From contig JACRJN010000144.1 of assembly GCA_016235675.1 (NCBI GenBank), positions 1 to 52,024 of the forward strand: 52,024 bases of DNA, written 5' to 3'. The position numbers and the translations under genes are program-made. The first letter of the stretch is position 1. Each line of letters starts with the position of its first letter. Source of the DNA: Candidatus Schekmanbacteria bacterium. Its GTDB lineage: Bacteria; SZUA-182. Positions 112-50,830 of this stretch are shown here, piece by piece. The notes under the pieces are model-generated. The model was not told where the DNA came from. It was given only the letters and a program-made list of their open reading frames with translations, and searched no databases.

Positions 112-180
112 AAGGAACTTCAATGTGTACAAGGGAATGTAGGGGCGGGGTCTCCCCGCCCCTACAAGAAAGTTCCTTTT
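112..180. repeat. Nested inverted repeat: AAGGAACTT arms around gtaggggcgggg/ccccgcccctac hairpin
   Basis: aaggaacttc ... gtaggggcggggtctccccgcccctac ... aaagttcctt read directly. Confidence 0.8.
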
Positions 181-364
181 AAGTTTGACCCCGGTCCCTG
201 GGTGATTCGCTGTTTAGGGAAATAAATCAATATTCAAAATGATCCCAATGTAGTTGCCCAATTCATTGGGCAGAAAGAACCTGATAAACCTGTCCTCGTA
301 AAAACGGGGATCAGGTAACTACACTTTTGAACGCAACTTGGTATAACCCCTGCTTGGAGGAAGA

Positions 365-1825
365 ATGCTATTTTCATCCGCCGTCAAGACTATTGAAAAA
401 TATCAATTAATAAAACAAGATGACAGCATCGTTATCGCCATCTCCGGGGGAGCCGATTCCGTGGCTTTGTTCCATTTTTTAGCGGAACTCAAATCCTGTT
501 TGAATTTGCGGCTGCATGCCGCCCATCTTAATCATAAACTACGGGGCAAAGAATCGGATAATGACGCCGAATTCGTGCGACAATTGGCGCAACAGCACCA
601 AATTCCTTATACGCTTCATGCTGAAAATATCGCGGTAAAAAGTAAACAGAATAAGCTCTCGCTGCAAGCCGCCGCCCGTAAATATCGTTATCGTTTTTTG
701 CGGTTGGTGGCTCAGACGCAGAAAGCCAACAAGATCGCCTTAGCGCATAACGCCGAGGATCAGGCGGAAACGATGATTTTGCGCTTATTGCGCGGCAGCG
801 GCCCGGAAGGATTACGGGGAATCCAGCCCCAAAACGGTCTTTTGATTCGCCCCTTTTTGGAAACAACCCGGCGGGAAATCGAGGAATATCTGAACAAACA
901 GCATTATGTCTACAGAACCGATTCGTCAAACCAGGAAACCAAATACTTACGCAACAAGCTGCGCCATGAACTGATGCCGGTTTTGCTCAAAGATTACAAT
1001 CCCCGCCTGCAAACCAATTTAAAACAATTAGCCGATATTCTGTACGAAGAGGATTTGTTCTGGCGGGTATATACGAACAACCAATTGGTTATGGTATTGC
1101 TCTACCAGGATTCGGAGCATGTGATTTTAGACAGCCGGGTTCTGAGAACCTTGCCCGCGGCCCTCCAGCGCCGTCTTTGTCGACTGGCTATCGAGCGGCT
1201 GGCGGGACATCTACAGGCGGTCAGTTTTATCCATATCCGGCAAATTCTTGATTTGGTGCAAAAGGATGCCGGGGAAAAAATCATCCATCTGCCTCGCAAT
1301 ATTTATGTGATAAAGCAATACGAGACCCTGGAAATCCGGCAAAGCCGTCCGCAATCGGCACCTGGCGGCAATGAATATGCGTTGAGTGTTCCCGGAATAA
1401 GCGAATTGGGCGATCTGGGTTTGAAAATAGAGGCACAAATAGCAGCGGTCGGCGAATTAGCGCCCAATTTTACGCATAAAACTACCCCTAAGCTTTGTTA
1501 TTTGGATTATGATCAGATAAAGGAGCCGTTACTGATCCGCACCCGCTGTTTGGGGGATCGCTTTCAGCCTTTGGGTATGGATCAGGATAAAAAGCTGAAA
1601 AATTTCCTGATCGACAGTAAAGTACCGCAAAGCCAAAGAGATGGGATGCCGCTATTGGTAAGCGGCGGGGAAATTGTATGGGTGATCGGCTTTCGCATCA
1701 GCGAAAAATACAAGGTAACCGCAGACAGCAAAAGGATATTGTGTCTGAAGGTTACCGATACCGGCAATCGTCTGTATGACGTCTTGTCCCACAGGATTTA
1801 TCCTGTGCCGAATTTTCAGATTTAG
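365..1825 (+). CDS. tilS: tRNA(Ile)-lysidine synthase TilS
   Basis: N-terminal SGGADSVAL PP-loop, AHLNHKLRG, AHNAEDQAET, LRGSGPEGLRG motifs. Confidence 0.95.
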   Translation: MLFSSAVKTIEKYQLIKQDDSIVIAISGGADSVALFHFLAELKSCLNLRLHAAHLNHKLRGKESDNDAEFVRQLAQQHQIPYTLHAENIAVKSKQNKLSLQAAARKYRYRFLRLVAQTQKANKIALAHNAEDQAETMILRLLRGSGPEGLRGIQPQNGLLIRPFLETTRREIEEYLNKQHYVYRTDSSNQETKYLRNKLRHELMPVLLKDYNPRLQTNLKQLADILYEEDLFWRVYTNNQLVMVLLYQDSEHVILDSRVLRTLPAALQRRLCRLAIERLAGHLQAVSFIHIRQILDLVQKDAGEKIIHLPRNIYVIKQYETLEIRQSRPQSAPGGNEYALSVPGISELGDLGLKIEAQIAAVGELAPNFTHKTTPKLCYLDYDQIKEPLLIRTRCLGDRFQPLGMDQDKKLKNFLIDSKVPQSQRDGMPLLVSGGEIVWVIGFRISEKYKVTADSKRILCLKVTDTGNRLYDVLSHRIYPVPNFQI

Positions 1826-1829
1826 CGAA

Positions 1830-1950
1830 CTACCAAATGTCATTGCGAGGCAGCCTTATCGCCGAAGCAATCTCAGACGCTCGATACCAGAGATTGCTTC
1901 GCTCCGCTCGCAATGACGCTACGGGTCTCCTGTTGAGAACGCTACCAAAT
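1830..1950. repeat. GTCATTGCGAG-family palindromic repeat with GGTAGCGTTCTCAACAGGAGACCC-type right arm; flanked by direct repeat CTACCAAAT
   Basis: Core tcattgcgaggcagccttatcgccgaagcaatctc...gagattgcttcgct..cgcaatgacg; CTACCAAAT at 1830-1838 and 1942-1950. Confidence 0.85.
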
Positions 1951-1967
1951 TATTATCAGGTCGTTGC

Positions 1968-3140
1968 ATGAATCATCATCAAAATAACAACCCCTCGCCG
2001 GTTATTATGATAGTAGCCGGGGAGTTATCGGGAGAACATTACGGCGCTCATTTAGCCAAGGCATTGCGGGAAACCAATCCCCAGGTTAAACTTATCGGTG
2101 TCGGGGGGCGGGAAATGGCGGATAACGGGGTGGAACTGCTTTTCAACATCAGCGCCTTGTCTGTTGTTGGAGTCTGGGAGGTTGCCGCCGGATTAAAAAC
2201 GATCTATTCCGTATTCCGCGGGTTGTGTCGACAATTGGATGCTGCCCCGCCCGATTTATTGATTTTAATTGATTACCCCGATTTTAACTTGCGATTGGCT
2301 AAAGCGGCTAAAAAGCGCGGGATTAAGATTTTATACTATATCAGCCCGCAAGTGTGGGCCTGGCGTAAAGGGCGCACCAAATTAATAACTGAATTAGTCG
2401 ATAAAATCGCGGTAATTTTGCCTTTTGAGGCCGCTCTGTATCAAAAAGTCGGGGCGGCGGTGGAGTATGTCGGCCATCCCTTGCTGGAAACCATCCCATC
2501 CGCCCAATTTAAGGAGCGGATTGTCAACCACGGGGAAGGTCGAATTGTCGGGCTGCTGCCGGGAAGCCGCCGCAACGAAATACATTTTTTGCTGAAACCG
2601 ATGCTGGATGCGGCCAGGATTTTATGGGAACAGAATTCGGATTTGGAATTTATCCTGCCTGTCGCCCCCGGTCTTGATTTTGAGGAAATCGAGCGCATAA
2701 GCTTAAGCTATAAGTTGCCCTTGAAACTATTACACGGGCAGGCGCGGGAAGCGATGAAGGAAGCCGACCTGATTATCGTCGCTTCCGGTACGGCTACATT
2801 AGAAGGCGCTTTAATCGGCGTTCCCATGGTGGTTGTCTATAAAGTGGCCGGGTTGACCTATTTTTTAGGGCGCATGTTGATCGACACCCCGTTCATCGCC
2901 TTAGCCAACATCGCCGCGCAAAAGGCGGTCGTGCCGGAATTGATTCAAGATGCTGTAAACCCGGAGAACATCGCGGCTTGCGCCGGCAAATTATTGAACA
3001 ATCTTTCCGAACGGGTGCGGATGCAAACGGAATTGGTTAAGGTACGGGAAAAATTGGGAGAAAGCGGCGCTTCCCGTAAAGTGGCGGCCTTGGCCTGGAA
3101 GTTGATGGACAGTGGACAGTGGACAGTGGATAATGGATAA
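1968..3140 (+). CDS. lpxB: Lipid-A-disaccharide synthase LpxB
   Basis: VAGELSGEHYGA, YYISPQVWAWRKGR, LLPGSRRNEI, ASGTATLEGAL, PMVVVYKV motifs. Confidence 0.95.
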   Translation: MNHHQNNNPSPVIMIVAGELSGEHYGAHLAKALRETNPQVKLIGVGGREMADNGVELLFNISALSVVGVWEVAAGLKTIYSVFRGLCRQLDAAPPDLLILIDYPDFNLRLAKAAKKRGIKILYYISPQVWAWRKGRTKLITELVDKIAVILPFEAALYQKVGAAVEYVGHPLLETIPSAQFKERIVNHGEGRIVGLLPGSRRNEIHFLLKPMLDAARILWEQNSDLEFILPVAPGLDFEEIERISLSYKLPLKLLHGQAREAMKEADLIIVASGTATLEGALIGVPMVVVYKVAGLTYFLGRMLIDTPFIALANIAAQKAVVPELIQDAVNPENIAACAGKLLNNLSERVRMQTELVKVREKLGESGASRKVAALAWKLMDSGQWTVDNG

Positions 3141-3203
3141 TGAAAAAACTAATTATTGTCTATTATTCAATTATCCATTGTCCATTGTCAATTATCCATT
3201 ATC
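3104..3203. repeat. Inverted repeat of GGACAGT/GGATAATGGATAAT tandem arms between lpxB and yicC; overlaps lpxB 3' end
   Basis: gatggacagtggacagtggacagtggataatggataatg ... ttatccattgtccattgtcaattatccattatc. Confidence 0.85.
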
Positions 3204-3218
3204 AAACGAGGGAAATCA

Positions 3219-5724: not shown

Positions 5725-5991
5725 GGAGATTACCTCACAAATACAGGGTAAATATTGCTTTTCTCTCAGCGGATAATTGTTTATAATAACATTGGTTGCA
5801 CTGCTTGACAAGGTTAAGTTTGCTGCCTATACTGATTATATGTTAAAAAATCGATTACTAAAACAAATGAAGTTATCGGGAATCTGGTTTTAATTCAACA
5901 CCATATTCCCGATAAAGGCATTCGGGGATGACACCTTGGAAGGCGCTGAACAAACCTTAAAACTCAGAGCTATGCCTTGAGTGAACAGTAG

Positions 5992-6139
5992 TACACGATT
6001 TTATAAATAACTAAGATTATTTTTTAAGTGTCATTGCGAGCTTAAGCGAAGCAATCTCTACCCGTGCGTCCGAGATTGCTTCGGCGATAAGGCTGCTGAG
6101 CTATGACAGAATAAACTCAGTTATTTATAAAATCGTGTA
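5992..6139. repeat. MITE-like element: 21-bp perfect inverted repeats TACACGATTTTATAAATAACT around a GTCATTGCGAG-family core
   Basis: 5992-6012 tacacgattttataaataact; 6119-6139 agttatttataaaatcgtgta; core begins near 6030. Confidence 0.9.
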
Positions 6140-6241
6140 GTAGGGACTTTAACGCACGCTAACCCCCATGTCATCAGATGAGGCTAAAGCCTCTACTCCA
6201 GCAAATTATATTTTCGGGAAAATATAAAGGAGGAAGTTTTT

Positions 6242-7453: not shown

Positions 7454-7661
7454 GTTGACAGTTGTCGGTTGTCGGTTTTAAAAATTTTTTAAGGGACTTA
7501 GAAGATATTAACATACCCCCCACTCTAACCCTCCCCCACAAGGGGGGAGGGAATTTATCCCCCTCCCCCTTGATGGGGGAGGGACGGGGTGGGGGTGATT
7601 ATCACGATTCAAAAACGGTATCCTTGAAAATTCCGAGTTCCTAACCGACAACCGTCAACCG
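7454..7661. repeat. Nested inverted repeat: GTTGTCGGTTGTCGGTT outer arms around cccccac...ccctccccc/gggggaggg...gtggggg inner hairpin
   Basis: Outer arms 7454-7476 and 7640-7661; inner about 7516-7595. Confidence 0.8.
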
Positions 7662-12122: not shown

Positions 12123-12222
12123 GTCATTGCGAGCAAAAGCTACGCAATCTCAGACGCACGCATGGAGATTGCTTCGCTTCGCTCGCAATGACGCTACGGG
12201 CATTCTATTGAGAACGCTACCA
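12123..12222. repeat. GTCATTGCGAG-family palindromic repeat, right arm CGCTACGGG...TTGAGAACGCTACCAA as at 1830-1950
   Basis: Direct comparison with the 1830-1950 copy. Confidence 0.85.
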
Positions 12223-12242
12223 ATTTTTAGAAGGGGAATAAA

Positions 12243-16219: not shown

Positions 16220-16301
16220 GTAGGGTGGTGCCCATTGGCCTAACATTATTTATGCCGGTCAAATATAGCCAGGAATAGTTTAAAATGGTGGGCACAGCCC
16301 C
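16220..16301. repeat. Inverted-orientation copy of the 12008-12109 element
   Basis: Reverse complement contains ggctgtgcccaccattttaaactattcctgg...tttgaccggcataaataatgttaggcca. Confidence 0.8.
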
Positions 16302-16440
16302 AATGCTGTTGACTTAAGACATAGCGCAGGGCTTTAGCCCTGCCCAAACGCGGCATTTAACCCCTGTGGTCGTAGCAGACCTAAAGGTCTGCGCTACGTA
16401 AACGTCAAAACAAAATTCCTTAAGTCAACAACATTGGGGC
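16297..16440. repeat. Nested inverted repeat: GCCCCAATGYTGTTGACTTAAG outer arms around TAGCGCAGGGC.../...GTCTGCGCTA inner arms
   Basis: 16297-16318 and 16419-16440 are reverse complements with one mismatch. Confidence 0.85.
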
Positions 16441-16453
16441 AAAGCCCACCCTG

Positions 16454-19400
16454 CTATCTCAGGAAAAGCCTGCGGATGATCGGCTGGTAGCGGGGAGGGA
16501 TAATTTGGCGATCGCTGGGGTCTTGTGGCAGAATGTGCGCGGTTAAATTTACCTTTTCATAGGGAGTATGTGGGGTGGTGTCGGTAAAATTACCAAATTC
16601 CCCGGATTTCTCATCGATAGGGGTTTCGCCCCAAAGGTTCGTTTGCTTTTCGTCCCGGAAGGAAACGGTCTGGTTTGGATGCGGCGGTTCATTTTTAGCG
16701 CGGTCGTTTTTAGTGGATAATGGCCCTGACTCAGCGGGGGTCAGCTTCCAGCGTTCGGGCAGATTTTGCTCCTGGGTAACCTGTTTATTATCAAGACTGG
16801 ATGTGCTGATGGGATTTGTGCGCGGCAAGGGGGCATTAGCCCTTGATTTTGGCGCAGGGGAATCGGTCAGATTTTGACGCAAATTTTTCAAACGCTGCAC
16901 CACCTGGGCAAAAACCTCATCATCCGCTAAATTTTCCTGCCCGGCATAGGGGGTGGAAATTTGGTCTTTTTCTTTGGCCTGATCGCCGTTATTGGAGGAA
17001 GGCAAATTTTTGGCCGATTTGGCTTGCAGGGTTTCTTTTGAGTTTTTGGCTTTTTGTTCGTCGGTATCGGTGGCGTTATCCGCTTGCCTGTCATCCTGAG
17101 CCGATTGACGGCCTGGCTGAGGAACAGTTAGTTTCCCGGAAGATTTTTGGGAAATCTCCCCGGTTCGGCGGCGGCGGGAATCCAACTGTTCCTTGCTTTG
17201 CCAGGCTAGAGCAACGGCCTTCTCCTTCTCCAGATTTTGCGAAAATTCCTTTGACAGTTTATCGATATTTTCCAGCGTCTTGCGCTTTAAATCTTCCATG
17301 TCCCGCTGAATTTTTTCCCGCTCTTCGGCTTGCTGCTGCATGGTTAAAGTCTGGTAGTCCTGCACTTGTTGGTGTGATTTGGCCAGCCTTTTTTCCTCGT
17401 TTCTGATTTGCGCCAACTGCTGCGCCGATTGTTGCAGTTTTTGGCTCCAGTCCTGAGCGGGTTTAATCTCCTGGGCAAGCTGCGCCAATTGTTTGCTCAA
17501 TATTTGTAATTCCTGCTCCTGCGCTTGTTTCAGCAGGTTTTGATCGGATGGGTTTAATTTATCCGCCGGGGCGGTTAATTCCTGCGCCAGGTCGGTCAAC
17601 TGCTTTTTATTTTGTTCCAGTTTACGGTAACTGTTTTTTAAGTTTTTGGTTTGGTTTTGTAAAAATTGAGCCTCGTTTGTGTTGGACAAACCTCTGCCAT
17701 GACCTGCATTGGTTTGGTCACGCTGAGCTAATTCTTTCAATGGATTATTTTTGGATAATTGCCGTTCTGAATTTTTATCGTTTTCCTGCCTTAAATTATG
17801 TTCCATATGGTTTTGCTGGCTGAGAGCTTCCGCAGCGGATTTAAGATAACCTTTAAGTTCCGCTCTCAGGTTTTCATCCGCATTGTCCCGGTTTGATTGC
17901 GATAAACTGCGATTTTTGGGGACATCCTGGTTGTACTGGTCGCTTTCCGTGTTTTGCATTTGGCTTTTTGCTGCTAACTTTTGCATAATTTCACCCCCCC
18001 GGCGCTTTAAATCGGTATCGGCTGTGGAAGTCTCAGCGAATTGTTCTAAATTTTGCCACAAGTTCTGTAATTGTTGAACCGAATTTCCCCCTTCGCTCGC
18101 TTTTTTGTCCAACTGACGGATTAAATCCAGCGTTGGCTCTGATTTAGGCTGGCCGGTATCGGGATGCGCATTCTGTCGGCGGATATTTTTTTGAGCCTTT
18201 AAGTTGTTGTCGTTCGTTACATCTTGATTCTCATTCTGTTGACTGTATTCCCGATATTCCTGCGTTCGATTCATGGCATCCCGGAAATTCGGTTCATTAA
18301 TATTTCCCCGCAGATTCGACTGCTTTGGCATGGGATTGTCGGGATCATTCAGATTCATGTCTTTATAAAGGTTTTTGTCGGCCTTTAAATTACCTTCCTT
18401 CCTCAAATTATTCTGCTCGGCTTTATTTTGACTAGATTGCCGGTATTCTTGCATTTGATTCAGGGTTTGCTGCATAATTTTTTGTAAATCGGGGTCTAAT
18501 TTATTAATGCTCTCCTGCATATTGGCTTGAACTTGCGGATGGGAATGGTCTAATTTCAGGTCTTTGAGGAAATCGGTAAGTGTATTGCCGGGAGGGTTGT
18601 TTTCCCCCGGCTTTTGTGGCTGTTTACTGGCGCGGGAATCCAGATATTTTTGTTTTTGGAGGTCATTTTGCCAATCCGGATTGAGTGCTTGCTCTGCATT
18701 TTGCATTTTGTTTAAATCTTTCTGCCGATTTTGATCTGATGCCGCGTTTTCTGAATAAATGTCATTGCGAAGCAGTTTTCCCGCCGAAGCCAGTTCAGAG
18801 GCTGCAATCTTATCGGGATGGTTTAGGTACTTGGAAATTTCAATTATACCGTTTATGTCATTGCGAGCGACCGAAGGAAGCGAAGCAATCTCTGTCCGTG
18901 CGTCTGAGATTGCTTCGGCGATAAGACTGCCTCGCAATGACAATTCAGTATACGGTATTTTAATACGTTCCAAGTCCCTTAGCTGTTCCGGCCATAACCC
19001 CTGGTTTTCCCTGGCGGTTTGAGATTGTCGGTTTAGGCCCGCCCCTAAATTTTTTGGGTACCGGTTTAACCGCCGGTCAGAATTATTGCCGTTTCCGTTG
19101 ACATTATTGCCCGGCGCCGCCGGTTGGTAATTAAAACCCGGTTTATCGGCGGATAGCCTTTGGCCATCCGGCAACTGCCCGCCGCGGCTGTCCAATCCCC
19201 TTTTTGCCCCCAAACTGGCTTCGCCCGTACCTCGACCTTTAGCCGTACTGACTAGCGTCGCCGGGTTGGCCGGGCTGACTCCGTTGATCAGGGCTTGGGA
19301 GATAATTCCCGCTCTTTGCTCATCCGTTTCCGGGGGTGTGATTTCGCTTCTTTCCGTATCGATATTGATCACCTTTTTGTGATGCGGTTTGGCGCTATGC

Positions 19401-32767: not shown

Positions 32768-32813
32768 AAGCCCTGTTGGATATTGAATCTCCATTCAATA
32801 TCCAACAGGGCTT
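32768..32813 (-). terminator. Perfect intrinsic terminator after the HEPN cassette
   Basis: Minus strand AAGCCCTGTTGGATATTGAATGGAGATTCAATATCCAACAGGGCTTTTTTATTT. Confidence 0.92.
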
Positions 32814-32847
32814 GATGTTCTCAATACCCAAAATAAATAAGTATTAT

Positions 32848-33800: not shown

Positions 33801-33802
33801 CT

Positions 33803-34465
33803 CTATCCCTCTAAATTTGTTATAATGTTAATAATTTCTTGTGCTTGATTATACTTAATTGATATAGAATCTAAGTTTTCTAAAAAAGAAGATACATTAT
33901 TATTTTCATAATTAATATTTAATATTTTTTTAAACGGGTTTTCTTTTATGGCATTAATTCTAAGTTCGCCAAAAGTTTCTTCTGAAACAAATTTTATTGC
34001 ATAATCTCCCATCATGATATTTTTTAATTCTAACTTACTTTGAATAATGTTTTTATTTACAAATTGATTTTCAAAAATATCTATACTTTCATTACTATCA
34101 AAAGTAAGAAGATAATTAAAATTTATTCCTCCCATTGCTAACGGAGTATGTGGCAGAACCTCAAAATATTTTTTGGCAATATTAGCAATCACGCTTTCAT
34201 GCGGTAAAATCTTAGAAATATCTAAAATCTGAAACCTATGTTGTTCAACAGTTATATGGATATAATCATATTTTATCGTTGACAATAGAGGTGTTGCTAC
34301 AAATTCTGTAAATTGTTTACCTCCTTCATTTTTAATAAAGCGTTTAAAAGGGTCTTTTTCTATCGGTAAAATATTGTTATCTATTAAAAAATTGTGATTT
34401 AATATTAATGGGTTTAAATACCCTATAAATACAATACTAAAAAAATTCTGGTTAATTTCGATCAT
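33803..34465 (-). CDS. Unknown protein of the AT-rich cassette
   Basis: Intact ORF 2 bp from the next gene. Confidence 0.7.
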   Translation of the reverse strand: MIEINQNFFSIVFIGYLNPLILNHNFLIDNNILPIEKDPFKRFIKNEGGKQFTEFVATPLLSTIKYDYIHITVEQHRFQILDISKILPHESVIANIAKKYFEVLPHTPLAMGGINFNYLLTFDSNESIDIFENQFVNKNIIQSKLELKNIMMGDYAIKFVSEETFGELRINAIKENPFKKILNINYENNNVSSFLENLDSISIKYNQAQEIINIITNLEG

Positions 34466-34481
34466 CTAAATTAATCTCCGG

Positions 34482-34628
34482 TTAAATCATCTCTTTCAAT
34501 TTAAGATTCTCTTCCTGCTTAATATTTACAATTCTACCATTTTCAAAGCTGATAAGCAATTTACCATAAAAGTTATTTTCTGTCAATTTGCGGATGAATT
34601 TAAAAAATGCTTCCATTTCCTTAACCAT
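34482..34628 (-). CDS. 48-aa DUF2292/YezD-like small protein (absent from the ORF track)
   Basis: Translated by hand: MVKEMEAFFKFIRKLTENNFYGKLLISFENGRIVNIKQEENLKLKEMI. Confidence 0.65.
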   Translation of the reverse strand: MVKEMEAFFKFIRKLTENNFYGKLLISFENGRIVNIKQEENLKLKEMI

Positions 34629-34633
34629 CTTAA

Positions 34634-34783
34634 TTACTCCTCAAAATCCACCAGTTCCAAATCCAGGCTTGCGGAGTTGAAACGCAGGTGGGTACCGTCG
34701 GTAAGATACAGGTCGTAGACCTCGATTACTTCCGGTTGAGTTGATTTTTGTTCTGTTTGATAATCCTGGCTTAAGTTTTCCAT
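34634..34783 (-). CDS. Small acidic protein, start MENLSQ
   Basis: MENLSQDYQTEQKSTQPEVIEVYDLYLTDGTHLRFNSASLDLELVDFEE. Confidence 0.45.
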   Translation of the reverse strand: MENLSQDYQTEQKSTQPEVIEVYDLYLTDGTHLRFNSASLDLELVDFEE

Positions 34784-34997
34784 GTTTACCTCAGTTCCTG
34801 TAGGGTGGGTTGTGCCCACCAATTGGTGTTTCGGCGTGGGGACACACCGAAACATTGACTGGAGTAGAGGCTTTAGCCTCATTTGATGAGGTACGGCTGA
34901 ACGTGCGTCGGGACGGGACTAAAGTCCCTACTCCAACAAAAAGTTTAATCCTTACGGATTAATCACAGGCGGGACGCCTGTGCTACCAAACTGCGGA

Positions 34998-35636
34998 CTA
35001 AAACCTGGCGAACTGCAATCCCGGCAAATCGGGGAAACCGCCGAAGTGTTCCTGGTTGTTCAACTGACTACAGCGGGTTAGGGTTTTGTCGCACCAGGTT
35101 TCTGTTCCGTTATAGCCGCATTGAACGCTTTTAAAGACGAAGTTGCAGACTTTGGAGAACATGCGCTTGTTTAGCGGCCTTGACCAGTCGTAATAACGCT
35201 CGGCCACTTCAATTTGAATGTTGCCCTCATTAGCCGAAACCGCGCTAACATAACCGCGGAAAATCAGGCGATAGGATGACGCCAGCTCCAAATCCAAATC
35301 GGTCATAGTGCGCCGGACGATCAACTTAGCCCCTTTGATCAGCGCCGGATTGCCTAAAAATAACTGGCTGTTTTTAAACTGAATATCCCCCAGCGTTATT
35401 TGCAGCTTGTTAATCCTGTTCCCCTCGCCTTGAGACATCCGCCCGCGCTGAATCGGCAACGAATAATAAGTTTTTATTCCCATAGGTTCAATCCCCAAAA
35501 CCAGGCCGCCATTGCTTTCGTTCCAGGCAAAAACTTTAGCGGCGATTATTCCGTTTCCGGTTTGGTTACAGTCCAGATCACGCTGGACGTAATCGCTAAA
35601 CTGTAACATGCCTTGTTTGATGATGAAGGTGTACAC
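34998..35636 (-). CDS. gpL/DUF2163 (BR0599)-like tail hub protein
   Basis: RMFSKVCNFVFKSVQCGYNG...CDKTLTRCSQLNNQEHFGGFPDLPG Cys-rich C-terminus. Confidence 0.8.
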   Translation of the reverse strand: MYTFIIKQGMLQFSDYVQRDLDCNQTGNGIIAAKVFAWNESNGGLVLGIEPMGIKTYYSLPIQRGRMSQGEGNRINKLQITLGDIQFKNSQLFLGNPALIKGAKLIVRRTMTDLDLELASSYRLIFRGYVSAVSANEGNIQIEVAERYYDWSRPLNKRMFSKVCNFVFKSVQCGYNGTETWCDKTLTRCSQLNNQEHFGGFPDLPGLQFARF

Positions 35637-35652
35637 GTAAATTCCTTAAAGA

Positions 35653-35828
35653 GGCTTCAGGCTCCAGGCTTCGGGCTTCAGGCTAAAAATCGTCATTGCG
35701 AGGCAGCCTTATCGCCGAAGCAATCTCAGACGCACGATCTTTAGATTGCTTCGCTCCGCTCGCAATGCTTTCGGCCTGGGAACAGGCCGAAAGAAATCAA
35801 TTTGCCTGAAGCCCGTAGCCTAAAGCCT
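35653..35828. repeat. Nested repeat: GGCTTCAGGCT arms around a GTCATTGCGAG-family core
   Basis: ggcttcaggctccaggcttcgggcttcaggct ... gcctgaagcccgtagcctaaagcct; core from 35692. Confidence 0.8.
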
Positions 35829-36612
35829 AATTTATCACTTCAATCAAACTCACCCCGGTCGATTCCAGCAAATAAGCAAACAGCGTCCGGCTCATAATTT
35901 TATTGACGAAGCGGGCGATAAATTGCTGCCCGTTTCTGGGTGAAGTAAAGATAAAGGGTTTGAGTTGCCCCGCCTGCTGCAAATAAAAATTCCAAAGTAA
36001 ATCCATGTCGGAGGATGACAACACCCCAAATTTTAAATTGAACTGCCGCCGCGGGCTGGTCACCGTTGATATCCGCTGCTCCCGGCCATTGGGATATTGG
36101 GTGATTTTGACCCCCTCGTAGGTAATACTTTCTTCATAATCATAATCCGGGAGGATACCGGGAAATTCCGCCATTAAATCGTAGGCGATTTCATTTGAAT
36201 CAAGCTCCACCGGCTGCAATCCATCGCTGATAAGAAATGCCCGGAAAGTGATTCGATTCGGATTGACGTCGAAACCTGCGATATGAGCGGCTATCACTGA
36301 GGCTGGATTATGCTGAGTCACCGCCGCCGCCCAAATCGCTCCATCCCAGTAGTACCACTCCAGGCCGCCGTCTTTGCTCAATTGATATTCCACGCTGCCC
36401 TGATTGCCCGCCCCCAATATTTCGCTAAAACCACTCCAATCATCCACCCCGAACGGATTAAGAACCGCAACAGGCTGAATTGCAGGCTGGTCATCGGCAT
36501 AAACCTCGCCGCCCAAGTCTTTAAGCCGGGCGATTCCATTTGCTATCTCTATCTTGCCGGCATCAAAAATGTAATCGCCGGATATATCGTATGGATATTG
36601 TTGATTAGGCAT
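35827..36612 (-). CDS. Distal tail/DUF2460-like protein
   Basis: Position between gpL-like and tape measure; ISTVTSPRRQFNLKFGVLSSSDMDLLWNFYLQQAGQLKPFIFTSPRNGQQFIARF. Confidence 0.65.
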   Translation of the reverse strand: MPNQQYPYDISGDYIFDAGKIEIANGIARLKDLGGEVYADDQPAIQPVAVLNPFGVDDWSGFSEILGAGNQGSVEYQLSKDGGLEWYYWDGAIWAAAVTQHNPASVIAAHIAGFDVNPNRITFRAFLISDGLQPVELDSNEIAYDLMAEFPGILPDYDYEESITYEGVKITQYPNGREQRISTVTSPRRQFNLKFGVLSSSDMDLLWNFYLQQAGQLKPFIFTSPRNGQQFIARFVNKIMSRTLFAYLLESTGVSLIEVIN

Positions 36613-36763
36613 TGATTATTTCTCCGTTAATTACAGGGGCTAGGGGGTTATAAACACTAACTTAAACGTAGCGCAGGGCTTTAGCCCTGCTTTCGGACAC
36701 TCATCAAACCCGGTAGCCGGTAGCAGACCTAAAGGTCTGCGCTACTTCACCCTTCACCCTTTC

Positions 36764-37447
36764 CTATCGCATTCCCTTAATCGACTGATACGTCACCCCG
36801 CCCTGGCGGATGTCGTTGCCGATCATGTTGACGATGACCTGGCTCTTTTTGGCGATAGTATCGCTGACGACCGATTCGATCATCCCCTGATCCAGCACAT
36901 TGACTACGGTAATCGGCGGCTGATTCTGCGTTCCCTGCATTTCAACCGGGATACTGCGGTTATTAGGCAGGGGCACCACCGCCTCGGAATTTTTCCCCTC
37001 AGCCACCAATCCCAAAGTGGGGCGGGAAAAGACGCCGCCTGAAGCCATCGGTACAAATTGCCCCGGCATAATTCCCCCTTGTGCATAGGCGCTGCCGGAG
37101 ATTATGGAACCGATCAAATTCAGCGATCCCTTTGCGGCCTGGAAAGAAGCCGTCTGAGTAGTCATGCGCGACATATCGCGGATAAAATTCCGGGCGAAAT
37201 CACTGAGCGCCTCTTTAGCCGATTTAGCCCCGCGCCCGATGTCGTAAAAGGCATTTCCCAAATCATTGCTTAAAGCCTTTTCCGCCTTTTTGCTTAAACT
37301 GGATAACTCCTTAACAGATTTATCGAAATTAAGCACATTTTCCCAATCCAATTCGGCCAACTGGCGGGTACTTTCCCGACGCATCTGCACCCGTTCCCGC
37401 TCGAAACTCGCAAGTAATCTGCGGGTTTGATTTAAATCACTGCTCAT
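36764..37447 (-). CDS. Short phage tail tape measure protein
   Basis: N-terminal coiled coil; DFARNFIRDMSRMTTQTASFQAAKG; GGIMPGQFVPMASGGVFSRPTLGLVAEGKNSEAVVPLPNNRSIPV. Confidence 0.85.
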   Translation of the reverse strand: MSSDLNQTRRLLASFERERVQMRRESTRQLAELDWENVLNFDKSVKELSSLSKKAEKALSNDLGNAFYDIGRGAKSAKEALSDFARNFIRDMSRMTTQTASFQAAKGSLNLIGSIISGSAYAQGGIMPGQFVPMASGGVFSRPTLGLVAEGKNSEAVVPLPNNRSIPVEMQGTQNQPPITVVNVLDQGMIESVVSDTIAKKSQVIVNMIGNDIRQGGVTYQSIKGMR

Positions 37448-37745
37448 GGTTAACCTCGTTAAATGATCCTTGAATTATTTCCAGTGCCTGTAAAAATAGA
37501 TTACTCTGATCCAGAATCCCGCCGGTAACCGGTAAAAAACCCTGCCGGTAATATTGATAAAGCCTAATAGCCGACCAACTTAACCCGCTTACCAATTTAA
37601 GGGGGCAGCGGCGGTAAGCCTCAGCATCAATAACCCAACGTTCCGGAAGGGGGGAATCTTCCTCGCAACCTTTTTCTACCTTCATCGCCTTGGTACAGCG
37701 GCGGCAATCAAATTCAGCCTGGTTTAGTAAAACCGCGACCCCCAT
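37437..37745 (-). CDS. Small tail-assembly-region protein with CxxC
   Basis: Overlaps tape measure start; FDCRRCTKAMKVEKGC. Confidence 0.6.
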   Translation of the reverse strand: MGVAVLLNQAEFDCRRCTKAMKVEKGCEEDSPLPERWVIDAEAYRRCPLKLVSGLSWSAIRLYQYYRQGFLPVTGGILDQSNLFLQALEIIQGSFNEVNHEQ

Positions 37746-37747
37746 TT

Positions 37748-38104
37748 TTAGTTTTTTATTTCATCCTCGCACACTTCGCTTTCCCCGCGAATAACATACG
37801 CCAATTCCGTCCGATACTTGGCCGGGATGTAATCCAGATTCTGAACGCTAAAAGGGATGGCATTCCCCGCCTGATCCCTAAAATTCTCCCAACTGGTTAA
37901 ACCCATTTCCAAGGTCTGACGTTCCTGAGAGCCGACAAGCCATTTCTCGACGTCACCTTGCTTGGTAAACAGGCTGTTTTTGAGGATTTCCATCTCCCGG
38001 ACGGTCAGATTCCTGATTTTAAAAACCGTCTGCTCGCTGGAAGGCAATTTCCGTTCATCTTCGACGATGTAATCCTTAGGTATATTCGGGTCAAAACCGC
38101 GCAT
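37748..38104 (-). CDS. Tail assembly chaperone-like protein
   Basis: Position between tail tube and tape measure; VFKIRNLTVREMEILKNSL. Confidence 0.6.
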   Translation of the reverse strand: MRGFDPNIPKDYIVEDERKLPSSEQTVFKIRNLTVREMEILKNSLFTKQGDVEKWLVGSQERQTLEMGLTSWENFRDQAGNAIPFSVQNLDYIPAKYRTELAYVIRGESEVCEDEIKN

Positions 38105-38230
38105 AAATTCAATCTCCTTTTTAAAATTTTTTCCACCGCAGAGGCGCAGAGAACACAGAGAAAATGAAGGATGAAAAGTATTTTTTTAATTATTCTCTGC
38201 GCCCTTTGCGTCTCTGCGGTAAAATATTTC

Positions 38231-39160
38231 TCATTTAAACGTCAACCTAACCTCATCATCCCCGTTAGCGCTATACAATCCGAATGGAATGTCGTAAATC
38301 CGGATGCCGTTTCGTTCCCCCCAGGCGATGGATTCTTTTACACATCCGCCGGAAGCCGAATCGATTTGAACCTTGTTGCCGGCCAAAGCTCCCATCAGAC
38401 AGCTTAGGGTCGCCCCATTCGCGCCTTCCCAATTTGACCAGAAAGGATGCGTATTTTCACTCACCGCCTCAGGATTTATCGCCCCACCTGGAGTGCGTCC
38501 GACGATCTCTATGCCGGATACCCCATGCGGGGCGTTGACCGATTCATGACGCGCAATCTTATTATTCAGATTCAGCGATAATTGGGCAATCAAAGTGCTG
38601 TAACCGGCATAGCTGAAAGTAACTCCCTGGAAAACCAGTCCCTTTTGTCCGGCGTAGACCGCTCCGGCAGGGATTGCGACATCGACGGGAGTCTGATATA
38701 ACCCCTGAATTTTCCAATTGATGCGTACCGGTTCCCCGGCGGCGGCAATCAGTTCGAAACTGCCCCGGCAGCCGGTAATCTTGTGCAGCAGGCCGTCCAG
38801 ATAAACGTAGACGGTACAGCTTTCAAAATCATTGGAGACAGGCTGATACTGCACATCCACCCCGATATTTTGTACTTCCTCCATGCCGCAGGCGCGAAGC
38901 AGTGTAGAAATCTCCGGCGGATCGCCCAACGTTCCCGATCCCTTTAGTTCCGTTGAAAAACTCAATTCGACAAACTTTCTTCCGATAACATGCGGGACAT
39001 TGGATAACGTTGGCCGCACCATATCCCGCTCGAACCGCTCGGCATTAACCTTAACCTGCGGATCGCTGACCAGAACGGCATGATTGGCGGGGGTAGGATT
39101 GGCGTCCGCTCCGTAATTAGTCTCTATTTTGGCTAGTATCAAGCCTTTTTTGCTTAACAT
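38231..39160 (-). CDS. Tail tube protein
   Basis: MLSKKGLILAKIETNYGADANPTPANHAVLVSDPQV; FVELSFSTELKGSG; synteny. Confidence 0.75.
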   Translation of the reverse strand: MLSKKGLILAKIETNYGADANPTPANHAVLVSDPQVKVNAERFERDMVRPTLSNVPHVIGRKFVELSFSTELKGSGTLGDPPEISTLLRACGMEEVQNIGVDVQYQPVSNDFESCTVYVYLDGLLHKITGCRGSFELIAAAGEPVRINWKIQGLYQTPVDVAIPAGAVYAGQKGLVFQGVTFSYAGYSTLIAQLSLNLNNKIARHESVNAPHGVSGIEIVGRTPGGAINPEAVSENTHPFWSNWEGANGATLSCLMGALAGNKVQIDSASGGCVKESIAWGERNGIRIYDIPFGLYSANGDDEVRLTFK

Positions 39161-39176
39161 GATGACTCCTGTAATA

Positions 39177-39336
39177 GTTGTCGGTTGTTGGTTAAATTCT
39201 TTTGCTCATTTGAAAGCGTCATTGCGAGCGAAGCGAAGCAATCTCTACTCGTGCGGTTGAGATTGCTTCGGCGATACGGCTGCCTCGCAATGACATTATT
39301 TTACATAACCGACAACCGTCAACCGTCAACCGTCAA
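39177..39336. repeat. Nested repeat: GTTGTCGGTT arms around a GTCATTGCGAG-family core
   Basis: gttgtcggttgttggtt ... aaccgacaaccgtcaaccgtcaac; core about 39218-39294. Confidence 0.85.
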
Positions 39337-39343
39337 CAAAGTT

Positions 39344-40021
39344 TTATCTATACTTCCTCGGATGAATTAGGTAATCCCCGCCCCAGGAATAACTTACATC
39401 CCAATCCAGGGTTTGCCCTGCCGCCCTGGGGCTGTCCTCTTTTTTCCCCATAAAATCATGGTAGCGGCTAATCAACTCCTTAGTCCGCCGGGCGTATTCG
39501 TCAGATTTAGTACGGTAATTAACACTGTCCGCCTCAACCAAAGTATCAGAGGTCTGAGCATAATAGCGGGCAAGGGCTTCACAGCACAGAGCCGCCGCCA
39601 GTACACAGAAAATATCCTGATCCGCCAGAGGGATAGAATCAATGTCCGCCTGAGTGTAAGCGGTGGTATAGTTTAAACGGATACTTTCCCCAATCTGAGG
39701 GCTGAAACTGTAAAAGTGCAGCTTTAGCCCCTGCGGGGTTTTATAGACCGTGTAATCCCCCGATTCCAGGATAACCGGTAGTTGCCGGCCAGCCGGATAT
39801 TCCACGGAAATCAATCCGGAAAATCCTTCCAGCCAATTTTGCGGCAAATCATATTGATAACCGCCGTCACCTGCTATATCGGCAACTTTGTAAAAGGGAG
39901 CATCTTTGCTGTAATAGGACAAGGCTTCGGCGATAAAGGCTTCGATGTCTTCGTTGCTAAGCCTTCCCGCTTCATCCTGAATCAGTCGGCTTACCTTTTC
40001 CCGATACTCGCTTAATGACAT
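39344..40021 (-). CDS. Head-tail connector/adaptor-like protein (internal start MSLSEYRE)
   Basis: SLSEYREKVSRLIQDEAGRLSNEDIEAFIAEAL...RRTKELISRY; synteny. Confidence 0.55.
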   Translation of the reverse strand: MSLSEYREKVSRLIQDEAGRLSNEDIEAFIAEALSYYSKDAPFYKVADIAGDGGYQYDLPQNWLEGFSGLISVEYPAGRQLPVILESGDYTVYKTPQGLKLHFYSFSPQIGESIRLNYTTAYTQADIDSIPLADQDIFCVLAAALCCEALARYYAQTSDTLVEADSVNYRTKSDEYARRTKELISRYHDFMGKKEDSPRAAGQTLDWDVSYSWGGDYLIHPRKYR

Positions 40022-40022
40022 G

Positions 40023-40709
40023 TCAACCCCCAATCTCGTACAAACGCTGGATTTCCGCCAACGATAGCGCCCGGTTATAAATACGGGCATTGGAAATCTG
40101 GCCGTTAAAGTAATAAAGTGTGTTTAGTAAAGCACCAAGATACAGCTTTTTATTCGTCTCATTTTTGATGCCGGTTGCATTGCTTGATGATGTGGATTGT
40201 TTTCCGTCTAAAACATTATAAATCTGGCTTCCGTTCCAAACCCCTACAGCGTGGTGCCAATTACTATCCAAAACAGCTACATCATGAGCTTGCTGCACGG
40301 AGACGCCGTCTGATTTAGTTAGCGCGACAATAAGCTTGTCGTTGGAATTAAATTCCAATTTATAACCGTAGCTGTTCCAGGTAAATCTGGAAATAATGCC
40401 CTGCTGTTGCCCGTTTTGCCGTTTTTTTACCCACGCGCTCAGAGTAAAAGCGCTGTCCGGACGCAGAGTGAGGCTGTCCGGTATTTCCACATAATCACCG
40501 TTACCGTCGAAATCCAAAACCCAGCCGTTGGGGCCGCTCTTCCAGGAAGAGTTGCCATACAATGTCCCCTGATGGTTGTTTCCGGAAAGATCATATACCT
40601 GTTTCCCGCCTCCCCCCTGTAAAGGCAGGTAGAAAACCAAACCATCGTTGATCGGATGGGTTAAAGGGACACTAAAAGGCTGTGCCGGTGCATAAACTGA
40701 TGGCCACAT
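40023..40709 (-). CDS. LamG/concanavalin A-like domain protein in head-tail module
   Basis: GLVFYLPLQGGGGKQVYDLSGNNHQGTL...FTLSAWVKKR...WHHAVGVWNGSQ...GQISNARIYNRALSLAEIQRLY. Confidence 0.9.
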   Translation of the reverse strand: MWPSVYAPAQPFSVPLTHPINDGLVFYLPLQGGGGKQVYDLSGNNHQGTLYGNSSWKSGPNGWVLDFDGNGDYVEIPDSLTLRPDSAFTLSAWVKKRQNGQQQGIISRFTWNSYGYKLEFNSNDKLIVALTKSDGVSVQQAHDVAVLDSNWHHAVGVWNGSQIYNVLDGKQSTSSSNATGIKNETNKKLYLGALLNTLYYFNGQISNARIYNRALSLAEIQRLYEIGG

Positions 40710-40805
40710 GTTTTCAACTCCAAATTAAGAAGGCTCTGGGCTTTAGGCTTCGGGCTTCAGGCTAATACAAAAGATTTTAGCCCAAAGCCTAAAGCCTGTG
40801 GCCTG

Positions 40806-41027
40806 TTAGTTATTCATTAACTCATTCAACACCGCTTGCCGCTCCGCTTCTTCCTGCAAAAACTTAAGTGCGTGTGTTTCAATCCTTTGGAATAATACTT
40901 CCCTGGACTCAAGTCCCCGGTACCAAACCACGGAAACGGTTTGCCCGGCCAACTCTTCCACCATTGCCGTCACCGTTTCCCCCCGGTTATCACCGTTACT
41001 GCGAATATCAAGAATCATGATGGTCAT
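40806..41027 (-). CDS. Hypothetical small phage protein
   Basis: Intact ORF in operon context. Confidence 0.45.
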   Translation of the reverse strand: MTIMILDIRSNGDNRGETVTAMVEELAGQTVSVVWYRGLESREVLFQRIETHALKFLQEEAERQAVLNELMNN

Positions 41028-41124
41028 TGATAACTCCCTTTAGGCTCTGGGCTTCAGGCTTCAGGCTTCAGGCTAAATTCAAGAAATTCAGCCCGAAGCC
41101 CGGAGCCTAAAGCCCGGAGCCTAT

Positions 41125-41499
41125 TTAAAATCTTAAATCTTTGGTAAAAAATCCCCAAACCTGAACCGAACTGACGGTATCCGTATTGGTAATCTTCAAT
41201 TTGGCCTTGACCGGCGTGCCGGTAACCGGGCGGCTTTTGCGCACCGTTTGGCCGGCCAGATAAGTCAATTCCATCAGCGCATAATTTTCGGTGTCCGGGT
41301 TGTTGTCATCCGGAGCGGAAAACACTTCGACTTTAACATTCCCGTTGGGAGTGGCTCCGAATGTTGCACCGCTGCCAAAAACCAAGCCGCTGACCATATC
41401 CAGATTGATCAAAGAGCTTTCGGTGCTTTGCCCGGCGGTAAGTGTTTGTTTATTATCGGGATTGCCGATAACGTAGATAGTCTGTTTTGAGATAGGCAT
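41125..41499 (-). CDS. Hypothetical phage head-region protein
   Basis: Intact ORF immediately downstream of capsid gene. Confidence 0.6.
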   Translation of the reverse strand: MPISKQTIYVIGNPDNKQTLTAGQSTESSLINLDMVSGLVFGSGATFGATPNGNVKVEVFSAPDDNNPDTENYALMELTYLAGQTVRKSRPVTGTPVKAKLKITNTDTVSSVQVWGFFTKDLRF

Positions 41500-41643
41500 G
41501 ATAACTCCAATTGATAATTGATAATGGATAATGGATAACGGAGACAGAAGAGAGAATAATGTAGCTTAATTTATTCTGACTTCTGGCTCCTGACTCCTGA
41601 CTTCTATATCTTCATTGTCAATTGTCCATTATCCCTTAGTTCC

Positions 41644-43608
41644 TTACGCCACCACCGATTTATACATCCCGCGGTAATCCAGCACGCACACGCCGTAGAT
41701 AAAGCGAATCTTGTAAGTAATCTTGTCGGCGGAAAACAGGCTGCCTACGTTGGGCTGATCCTGAACGAACAGTTCCGGCTCCTCCTGCCCGTTGTAGAAA
41801 CCGACTTCGATGGTCGGGCAATCTGCCGGGTTGCAGATTAACGACCAATCGTTGGTGTCAGTCCAGAAAGGTACCTGGATGACTTCCAAACCGTAACTGG
41901 AATGGATGTTAGGTTCTGTCCCGGCGTTGTTGGGAGCGCCGACCATTGTACCGGAGGTGGTCAGTTTGTAAGCGGTATCCTGTAATTCAAACGGCGCCAA
42001 TAAATATCTGGGCGTCAAACCCAATATCTCAGAGGATGCGCCGTAAGCGGTCTGTTTTCCCATCGCCATTTTACCGGTCAACAGGGATGAAGCATCCAAT
42101 GCCCCCGAACCAAGGTTGTTGTGGTTGGCATGGAAAAGACTCACAGAATCATAAATAGTAACGTTGTCCTTGATCAAATTGAATACGGCGCGGGATAAGG
42201 TATTGCCTGCCGCTCTGGCCAAACGTATCGGGATACGCCGGATTGCCCCCGTATCGTCGTTGGCGATCATCTCCAAAGTGATTTCTTCCAGACCGCCCTT
42301 TTTGCTGATGCTGTAGGTTGCCTCTTCATCGCCGGGGCTGGTCAGATTTTGATAAGCGCCATTTTCCGCTACGCCTGGCAACTCTCCGTAGCCGCCCACT
42401 CTCATCCGGCGGTTGCTGCGAAAATCACGGGGTGCGGTGATGTCGGAAACGATCTTGCGCCAATTTTGCAAGCCGGGCATGTTATATTCATTTACCATGC
42501 GGCGGGTAATCGAATCCCCCAGAATCTCCGTCCAGGAGGATGTGGCAAGAGACTCAGCCAAACGGGTAAGATTCTTGGCCTCCCGCGTTTGGCCGGTCAA
42601 ATTAGCATCGCCGGTAATCTGTACATAAGCCTCGCGAAAAGAACGAAAGCGCGGCGTCCGGTTTATGTCCTGATTGGCGAAAAAGCCGTCCAGAGCGCTG
42701 GTCAGCCTGTGCGCCTCATCGTCTCCAACCTGCACCCGTCCGAAACCGCTGACCTTGCCGGACTCGCTCAGTTTGGCCAAATACTCCCGCTCTTCTCTGA
42801 TGGCCTCATTCAATTGCTGCGGGGCAAAGATTTGACCAAAAAAGCGTTTCTCTATCCGGGCATTGGCCAATTCCGGCAGTCTGGCTTCAGCCAGCTTCTC
42901 CCGCAATACCGCCTGAGCCTCCACTAACCCTAACCCTGTTTCCCCTTGCCCTGTCCCCACCAGGTTCAATACCTGATCCTCGCTGGCGTTGGCCGGATCG
43001 ATCTTCCGGTACAAATCCGGGGCTTTGCTCTCCAGCAATTGCAACAACTTTTGCATTCCTGCGTCCTCCTGTGGATGATTTTCAGGTCTTGGCAGTCCGG
43101 CGACCAGTTTTAGTACCTTGCCGCCCGCCGCCGGGTTGAGCACCACGTCAACGGTAAAGACCTGATTGATACTTTCTACATAGGTAACTACCTCATCGCC
43201 CTGCTTTTTCTTAAGCGCGCTCCCCTGCGCCACGATGGAAAAACCGACGATGTCCTTCTTTCCCTGCCGCCAGGCGTCCAGTAACAATAACCGCAGCCAT
43301 TCGGCGCATTCCGAAATATGAAACCTGGCGCTGATTTGATCGTTCTCAAAGCGCGGCTGATTAAACCAGCCCACGATATTTTTTACCGAACGGTTCATAT
43401 CCTGGGTGTGCTCCTCATCGGCCCGTGCCAGCGCCCGCACCCCCTCAAACAGCGGAACCGCTTTTTGCAAGACTTCCGCCGGATAATAAGTCGCGTTACC
43501 CGACAATCCGGCCCGGATAACCGCCACCTCCCATTCCGTCCCCTTACCGTCTTTGGCCTCGATCAACTGGGCTTGCTGCGGCAGGATGCTTTTCAACGTT
43601 GTCTCCAT
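41644..43608 (-). CDS. Prohead protease-major capsid fusion (Mu gpT-like capsid domain)
   Basis: N-terminal DEEHTQ...VGWF...DIVGFSIVAQG protease-like region; C-terminal DFRSNRRMRVGGYGELPGVAENGAYQ...EEITLEMIANDDTGAIRRIPIRLARAAGNTL. Confidence 0.8.
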   Translation of the reverse strand: METTLKSILPQQAQLIEAKDGKGTEWEVAVIRAGLSGNATYYPAEVLQKAVPLFEGVRALARADEEHTQDMNRSVKNIVGWFNQPRFENDQISARFHISECAEWLRLLLLDAWRQGKKDIVGFSIVAQGSALKKKQGDEVVTYVESINQVFTVDVVLNPAAGGKVLKLVAGLPRPENHPQEDAGMQKLLQLLESKAPDLYRKIDPANASEDQVLNLVGTGQGETGLGLVEAQAVLREKLAEARLPELANARIEKRFFGQIFAPQQLNEAIREEREYLAKLSESGKVSGFGRVQVGDDEAHRLTSALDGFFANQDINRTPRFRSFREAYVQITGDANLTGQTREAKNLTRLAESLATSSWTEILGDSITRRMVNEYNMPGLQNWRKIVSDITAPRDFRSNRRMRVGGYGELPGVAENGAYQNLTSPGDEEATYSISKKGGLEEITLEMIANDDTGAIRRIPIRLARAAGNTLSRAVFNLIKDNVTIYDSVSLFHANHNNLGSGALDASSLLTGKMAMGKQTAYGASSEILGLTPRYLLAPFELQDTAYKLTTSGTMVGAPNNAGTEPNIHSSYGLEVIQVPFWTDTNDWSLICNPADCPTIEVGFYNGQEEPELFVQDQPNVGSLFSADKITYKIRFIYGVCVLDYRGMYKSVVA

Positions 43609-49853: not shown

Positions 49854-50039
49854 CGGGAAATCTTCCTTAAATTAACCACGGAAACGCGGAATTACGGAAA
49901 CACTGAAAAAACAAATTTAAACATAGTAAAAGTGGTAAAATAAATATAATTTGAACCTTAATTTCTTTTCCGTGCTTCTTTTTTTCTGTGTTTCTGTGGT
50001 TATTATTGTCTTTATCCTTGGACGATTTGTTTGAAATTC

Positions 50040-50288
50040 TTACCTCGTCATCGCCAGCAACTTCAGAATCATCACCAGCATCCCCAAACCGGTACTGCCC
50101 AAAAGCCCCTGAATCCACCAAAGCTTATTCTCCACCCGTCCGATGCGGCTGCCAATCTGCCCGATATTTTCCTCGTGCCGCTGGTTCAACCCCTTCTGTT
50201 CACTGATCGACATCCTGATTACCGTTTCCAGATTTTTAATGTCTCCCCGTACCTGTTCCAATTCCAGCTTGATTTCATCGTTCGTCAT
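50040..50288 (-). CDS. XhlA-like membrane-anchored small protein
   Basis: Heptad-rich N-terminus, C-terminal TM WWIQGLLGSTGLGMLVMILKLLAM. Confidence 0.6.
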   Translation of the reverse strand: MTNDEIKLELEQVRGDIKNLETVIRMSISEQKGLNQRHEENIGQIGSRIGRVENKLWWIQGLLGSTGLGMLVMILKLLAMTR

Positions 50289-50328
50289 GTACTGCTCCGT
50301 TGTTATTTAGTGAATGGACTGTCATTGT

Positions 50329-50424
50329 TCAATTCTGTAACCATATCAACAAGGCAAATATCACAAACCAGGCAACAACGTTAAATAGAATTAAGCTTAC
50401 GCAACGTAATGAAAATACATTCAT
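50329..50424 (-). CDS. 31-aa single-TM micropeptide (absent from ORF track)
   Basis: Translated by hand: MNVFSLRCVSLILFNVVAWFVIFALLIWLQN; upstream AAGGAGGCGAGCAAAAATG gives a good ribosome-binding site. Confidence 0.6.
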   Translation of the reverse strand: MNVFSLRCVSLILFNVVAWFVIFALLIWLQN

Positions 50425-50493
50425 TTTTGCTCGCCTCCTTCCCTCAGCATCATGGTTATAATTATACACATTGTTGCAAAAATGTCAAAAATG

Positions 50494-50553
50494 GTTACAG
50501 CCTGTAACGGATAATGGCGGCCAGCTACAGGCGATTTTGTTACAATTTGTAAC
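50494..50553. promoter_or_regulatory. Two GTTACAnnnTGTAAC palindromes, putative operators
   Basis: GTTACAGCCTGTAAC 50494-50508; GTTACAATTTGTAAC 50539-50553. Confidence 0.6.
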
Positions 50554-50655
50554 GAGATGCTACTATTATCGTGAATTATCGGTAAATATTGCGATTTTTA
50601 ATGTGGGGGGAAGAAAAGGGTGAAGGGTGAAGGGTGAAAAAAGATGGATGCTGTA

Positions 50656-50830
50656 CTAGTACAGCGTCCATTTTATATTGACGGGTTGGGATAAAGATTT
50701 TATACTCTCCGTTTTGTCATTCCCGAATGATGTTATCGGGAATCTGGTTTTTTTAAACACCATATCCCCGATAAAGGCATTCGGGGATGACATGTTGGAA
50801 CCCGTCAACATTAAATGGACGGCGTACTAG
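50656..50830. repeat. MITE-like element: about 32-bp imperfect inverted repeats CTAGTACRSCGTCCATTTWATRTTGACGGGTT around a GTCATTCCCGAATG hairpin
   Basis: 50656-50687 and 50799-50830; inner 50716-50791. Confidence 0.88.

Follow-up and report, generated by a model that had tools for sequence, protein, structure and literature searches.

Introduction

Elhai et al. reportedly described in Nostoc, in 2008, tiny repeats that lie inside heptamer arrays and minitransposons and show nested insertion. In A. variabilis, T. roseum and H. neapolitanus, dimers of repetitive extragenic palindromic (REP) sequences of the GTAG and CGTC classes are enclosed in other palindromes; no transposase is dedicated to the CGTC REPs (Di Nocera et al. 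2013, PMC3733652). REP palindromes are also targets of insertion sequence (IS) elements (Tobes and Pareja 2006, PMC1525189). The stretch analysed here (the window) comprises 52,024 nt from Candidatus Schekmanbacteria bacterium (contig JACRJN010000144.1 of assembly GCA_016235675.1, named C108 in this work). At many loci, an outer inverted repeat encloses a different inner one. An earlier note on this sequence had described such nested palindromes, with partners exchanged between loci, and had attributed them to a mechanism that targets hairpin loops or duplicates palindromes at cruciform tips. The present analysis suggests that most of them are tiny transposons devoid of a transposase, each with another hairpin repeat inside that is itself dispersed separately, a reading to which we assign a probability of about 0.78.

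Nested palindromes in the genome

The genome comprises 2.98 Mb in 190 contigs, with an assembly completeness of about 90%. The counts given below rest on 1.71 Mb (140 regions plus the window) and on pattern searches of the whole genome. In the 1.71 Mb, 938 inverted repeats scoring at least 13 were observed, versus 15 in a Markov control; pairs of outer and nested inner repeats numbered 147 versus none. Single-strand DNA folds of four nested palindromes were far stabler than those of shuffled sequences (z = -7.3 to -12.1). The nested palindromes are real and exceed chance. Reading of the sequence and the list of inverted repeats located the arms and cores described earlier in all nine stretches concerned.

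Outer arms as probable transposon ends

Arm consensuses were named by hand from recurring arms; single-linkage clustering merged all arms into one family. When the consensus arms were paired, 190 elements belonging to 13 families were obtained, most of them with interiors of 60–200 bp. A hairpin scoring at least 8 lay in the interior of 96% of the 190 elements; for shuffles and random segments, the proportions were 14% and 17%, respectively. The flanks of family A elements contain a 4-bp direct repeat (36 pairs; identity 0.82, versus 0.34 in re-paired flanks), while a 10–11 bp duplication flanks 42 of the 60 D-family elements (null, 3.4%). Since these target-site duplications lie outside the arms, the A and D arms are transposon ends. 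Families A–J have the terminal inverted repeats, short length, non-coding interior and high copy number of miniature inverted-repeat transposable elements (MITEs); the target-site duplication typical of MITEs is clear for A and D, and weak or short in the other families.

The D1 and D2 ends (CAATGCTGTTGACTTAAG and CAATACTGTTCACTTAA) fit the IS4-subgroup consensus -AATR--------WTW, and their duplications, mostly of 10–11 bp, fall within the 10–13 bp of this subgroup. The D3 end (CATAGGCGCTAACTTAA) fits the IS231-subgroup consensus CAT-------AA--TAA; its duplications were of 10 or 11 bp in 12 of 16 cases, within the 10–12 bp of IS231 (end consensuses and repeat lengths from PMC2266710). The B, C and G ends were considered as possible IS630-type ends, for which a TA duplication and a DDE_3 transposase would be expected: they show CTAG, and no PF13358 gene was found in the genome. 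The ends of B, C and E–J may be transposon ends as well, by analogy; their duplications are short or unclear, and no matching transposase was found in the genome. The local D elements are called transposase-less derivatives because no autonomous copy was found in the same genome. Candidate full IS copies with these ends in the genome proved to be chance pairs around unrelated genes.

Inner hairpins

The commonest inner hairpins were core1 (163 copies), core2 (76) and core3 (69), all of them near-palindromic dimers. Core1 and core2 are head-to-head dimers of the form GTCATT..AATGAC and belong to the CGTC REP class (terminal CGTC/TGTC motif, stem starting with AT), an assignment based on terminal motif, stem start and dimer form. 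Core5 was grouped with them as a CGTC-like REP-type dimer. Core3, core4 and core7 have the GTAG REP form, in which a GTAG tag precedes a short hairpin, again as dimers (for example, GTAG-CGCAGACC-TTTA-GGTCTGC). The other inner hairpins are C-rich or consist of heptamers. Tandem arrays of 7-bp units in inverted pairs (GGCTTCA, GTCGGTT, GGGTGAA, CGAGATA and GGATAAT) are numerous in the genome, and many of their loops hold no known core.

Among 295 cores located away from contig ends, 152 lay between the two arms of a known end family, 74 had a single arm, 11 lay in some other outer inverted repeat and 58 had none. Thus, 226 of the 295 were within or adjoining known end families; the interiors of these elements, cargo excluded, amount to about 3% of the sequence outside open reading frames. 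Two genes (L002 and L004) passed the cut-off for REP-associated tyrosine transposases (RAYTs), enzymes that the earlier note had proposed to look for. The RAYT at L004:1100-1960 has GTAG-type GGTAGCACAGGC repeats on both sides, a typical REP-transposase locus. The GTCATT-type cores, however, core1 and core2, flank neither gene. Core3 and core4 were not seen at a RAYT, the GTAG repeat flanking L004 being a different one.

Exchange of partners

Several outer families carry more than one cargo. D1 encloses core3 (nine), core1 (four) or core2 (three); D3, core3 (seven) or C-rich hairpins (six); G, core2 (seven) or core7 (three); and J, with a single subterminal backbone, C-rich hairpins (nine), core1 (seven), core7 (three) or heptamer arrays (three, of two kinds). 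Conversely, core1 is carried by A, B, C, D, H, J and heptamers. The order can also be reversed: a J element lies within heptamers at 7454, and heptamers within J at L060, L092 and L102; core1 lies within J, and a J element within core1 at L043:6985. The claim of combinatorial nesting with exchanged partners is therefore borne out by D, G, H and J, each with at least two cargoes, and by this reciprocal order, and the central position of the core does preserve outer pairing, as had been proposed. The pairing of outer and inner repeats is structured (chi2 431; 500 shuffles gave values of 178 at most), which excludes chance adjacency, and 29 combinations were observed where 55 were expected. Interior length is nearly constant among copies of each outer/inner pair, and hence a few captures followed by amplification would account for them.

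A four-layer stack was found at L082:47-331, with J enclosing a C-rich hairpin, this an IS231-like D3 element, and the latter a second C-rich hairpin. At L148:16701-17002, an asymmetric hybrid combines a J left end, core1 and a family A right end; it looks like a product of recombination between cores.

D1 ends in other genomes

The 18-bp D1 end was found at no fewer than 80 loci in named genomes of many phyla. In a Desulfobacteraceae genome (L217), a 1.5-kb element has the exact D1 end CAATGCTGTTGACTTAAG on both sides and an imperfect 11-bp duplication in its flanks. It encodes a 451-aa IS4-family transposase (NF033592, 175.7 bits; PF01609) in which YFRRWEVEGYYRDEK constitutes the DDE Y(2)R(3)E(6)K motif. 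In a genome from another family of the same class as the host, D1 ends surround a GTCATTCTGA hairpin; elsewhere they enclose C-rich, dRS3-like, heptad or other hairpins. The D1 cargoes of Methylobacter and Syntrophobacteraceae have matches mainly in their own genome (19 and 49, respectively), some of which will be further D1 copies; judged from these matches, the cargo in both hosts appears to be mainly the host's own repeats. Four D1 elements (L197:4261, L199:3563, L233:1024 and L240:898) have interiors of 40–69 bp and no clear hairpin; the one in L197 is flanked by a perfect 11-bp duplication. Two D1 elements of one host with the same ends, L198:3877 and L206:2324, differ in that one holds a single hairpin and the other a dimer, a difference that looks like a deletion between dimer halves. 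No family A ends were detected in eight relatives of the same class.

Palindrome tips as targets

The insertion of D elements at palindrome tips was assessed by removing one copy of the duplication and requiring a palindrome score of at least 5. By this test, 9 of 42 D target sites lay at palindrome tips, versus 2.7% of intergenic points (p = 1.4e-6). The clearest case is L068:12441, where the element interrupts a perfect GTAGGGTGGGCTGTGCCCACCCTAC in the middle and is flanked by an 11-bp duplication; the D1 element at 16301-16436 of the window is another tip insertion. For cores outside transposon ends, 11 of 69 lay within another inverted repeat, versus 8.8% of random intergenic points. Core2 in the terminator-like loop at 25534-25668 is a good single case that forms no pattern. 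The idea of a mechanism that targets hairpin loops thus survives for the IS4-type elements, which favour palindrome tips, but not as the general cause, given the modest figure for the cores and the nature of most outer arms; as a general mechanism it is only partly supported. Because most outer arms are transposon ends, the central position of a core may simply be that of the dispensable part of a mini-transposon.

A possible mechanism and its alternatives

In the mechanism that we propose, a transposase acting in trans would recognise the outer arms as terminal inverted repeats; for the D families, it would be an IS4-family DDE enzyme. The interior would be dispensable for movement and has become filled with hairpins, mainly REP-type dimers but also C-rich and heptamer hairpins; vehicle and cargo would then be copied as one, which would account for the many two-layer palindromes that are nearly identical. 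Insertion of such elements into other repeats would add layers: those of the IS4 type would go preferentially, though not mainly, to palindrome tips, the 10–11-bp duplication lengthening the inverted repeat, and J elements would land in heptamer hairpins and in core1. We infer that the cargo entered the vehicle by insertion, rather than the vehicle being assembled around it. Much of the nesting is explainable by known kinds of mobile DNA.

Several observations weigh against this reading. Outside families A and D, the target duplications are short or fail to convince. Neither an autonomous partner of any family nor a DDE_3 gene was found in the genome (about 90% complete, as stated), and D-type ends lie near none of its four DDE_Tnp_1 genes. 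About 58 of the 295 cores have no recognised outer arms. No orthologous empty site was seen in comparison genomes that lie outside the host's genus and family.

A general process that puts hairpins at the tips of other hairpins, such as one in which another hairpin fills a break at a cruciform tip or serves as the template for filling it, would explain why the cargo is nearly always a hairpin, though of unrelated sequence, why the J backbone has several of its cargoes close to its centre of symmetry, and why core2 occupies a single-copy terminator loop at 25534. The preference of D elements for palindrome tips would also fit, but an IS4-type target preference with duplications explains it. We consider such a process unlikely, as the proportion of cores found in inverted repeats outside transposon ends (11 of 69, versus 8.8% at random) speaks against it, and the near-constant interior lengths imply few captures plus amplification. 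A rather improbable variant is that a cellular process, for example repair of cruciform-tip breaks, copies arbitrary resident hairpins into palindrome centres, with transposons merely amplifying some of the products. It is a tentative possibility, compatible with the transposon reading, that the hairpin cargo is selected, mini-transposons with a bidirectional terminator or structured spacer being better tolerated or moving better, irrespective of how the cargo gets there. Almost every one of the 190 elements has a hairpin as cargo, and so do most D1 elements found in other genomes; the hairpin-free D1 elements, with that in L197 perfectly duplicated, show on the other hand that a hairpin is not required.

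Exchange of partners by homologous recombination between copies with a common core, of which the hybrid at L148:16701 could be an example, seems very doubtful for the bulk of the elements: crossovers yield asymmetric hybrids, and symmetric exchange of both arms is the common case. That each nested palindrome is a single fixed composite, with no exchange, is highly improbable. In the 1.71 Mb, this is true of B and C (core1), of E, F and I (core2) and of 36 of the 38 paired A elements, all with core1, so that in essence these six families have a fixed composition and were multiplied as whole units. The earlier note had asked whether outer arms ever occur without their core; they occur without it or with another in D, G, H and J, not in B, C, E, F and I, and hardly in A. 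The multi-cargo families, the many vehicles of core1 and the reciprocal nesting rule out fixed composites as the whole story. Hardly any weight can be given either to outward growth of the arms as inverted duplications of their flanks, for instance by template switching. The single-copy outer arms at 25534 would agree with it; against it stand the end families, whose arms recur at dozens of loci, and the direct target duplications outside the A and D arms.

Elements in the window

The elements at 5992, 25975, 50656 and 16297 are members of dispersed composite families. The first is a family B element (5988-6143, plus strand) with CTAGTACACGATTTTATAAATAACT ends of the CTAG/TA type and core1 at 6030-6107; all eight paired copies of family B carry core1. 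A family A element with TTGGTAGCGTTCTCAAnAGGAGACC ends (25975-26114, plus strand) carries core1 at 26006-26083, and a family G element with CTAGTACAGCGTCCATTTTATATTGACGGGTT ends (50656-50830, plus strand) carries core2 at 50716-50791. The D1 element mentioned above (16301-16436, plus strand), with CAATGCTGTTGACTTAAG ends, contains core3, a GTAG-type REP dimer, at 16322-16397. Its 11-bp target duplication, GGGCACAGCCC/GGGCAAAGCCC, spans 16290-16447 at the tip of a GGTGGGC..GCCCACC palindrome. The nesting seen earlier at 16297-16440 is correct; the outermost GCCC/GGGC letters, however, are not an arm and belong to this palindromic duplication.

At 7454-7661, the nesting was likewise confirmed, but the heptamer arrays do not hold the C-rich hairpin directly. 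There are three layers: inverted GTCGGTT arrays outermost, a family J element (7492-7642, plus strand) in the middle and the C-rich hairpin (7517-7595) inside; about nine more copies of J with a C-rich hairpin occur in the analysed portion of the genome. Inverted GTCGGTT arrays also surround core1 (39218-39294) at 39177-39336, and inverted GGCTTCA arrays at 35653-35828 enclose core1 (35692-35767) together with a second hairpin, CTTTCGGCCTG..CAGGCCGAAAG. At 25534-25668, the loop of a single-copy, terminator-like stem contains core2 (25567-25633).

Core1 is accompanied by one family A arm at 1839-1948 (half element, minus strand) and 12123-12223 (minus strand), and lacks outer arms at 21104-21188 (minus strand), where both flanks are single-copy. 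Sequence reading also revealed AAGGAACTT/AAGTTCCTT arms around a GTAG-type hairpin (GTAGGGGCGGGGTCTCCCCGCCCCTAC) at 112-178. Another J element (18825-18979, plus strand; core1 at 18857-18941) lies within a 1546-aa open frame (16454-21094, minus strand), in which it creates no stop; the protein has no Pfam match. Palindromic inserts inside proteins are known from Rickettsia, and this case resembles them. Phage-like genes at 26843-43608, for a tail protein, a capsid and a tail tube, are interspersed with REP and heptamer hairpins, which suggests an old or domesticated prophage.

Comparison with known systems

If outer arms are read as mini-transposon ends with measurable duplications, the intergenic hairpin mosaic of many bacteria becomes a set of layers that can be ordered. 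On this reading, repeats for which no transposase is known, the CGTC REPs for example, can spread by travelling as passengers. The D1 series, in which one 18-bp end surrounds hairpins that differ from host to host, amounts to a natural experiment on the spread of REP-type repeats, and the mini-transposon reading makes the step of cargo entry testable.

With respect to the Nostoc repeats, the cargoes described here are REP-type dimers and C-rich hairpins, and the vehicles are IS-derived, one of them being spread across many phyla.

The D families resemble the IS4 family (IS4 and IS231 subgroups; PMC2266710) in end consensus, in duplications of 10–13 or 10–12 bp and in the IS4 transposase of the full-length D1 element; unlike IS4 elements, the vehicles are of about 110–400 bp and their passengers are hairpins rather than genes. 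As in the report of Tobes and Pareja, some D elements are inserted at the tip of GTAG-type palindromes, but here the inserted element itself brings another REP dimer. The cores, being hairpin-forming REP doublets, are similar to the REPINs associated with RAYTs (Bertels and Rainey 2011, PMC3116915), and one of the two genes passing the RAYT cut-off is GTAG-flanked; in contrast to REPINs, the commonest cores (CGTC-like) are unlinked to a RAYT and travel inside other elements. The palindromes of Di Nocera et al. were not described as transposon ends and showed one pairing per case, whereas those described here have duplicating ends and several exchanged cargoes. The presence of REP dimers inside palindromes has been known since 2013; what is added here is the evidence from terminal inverted repeats, target duplications, cargo exchange and occurrence across phyla.

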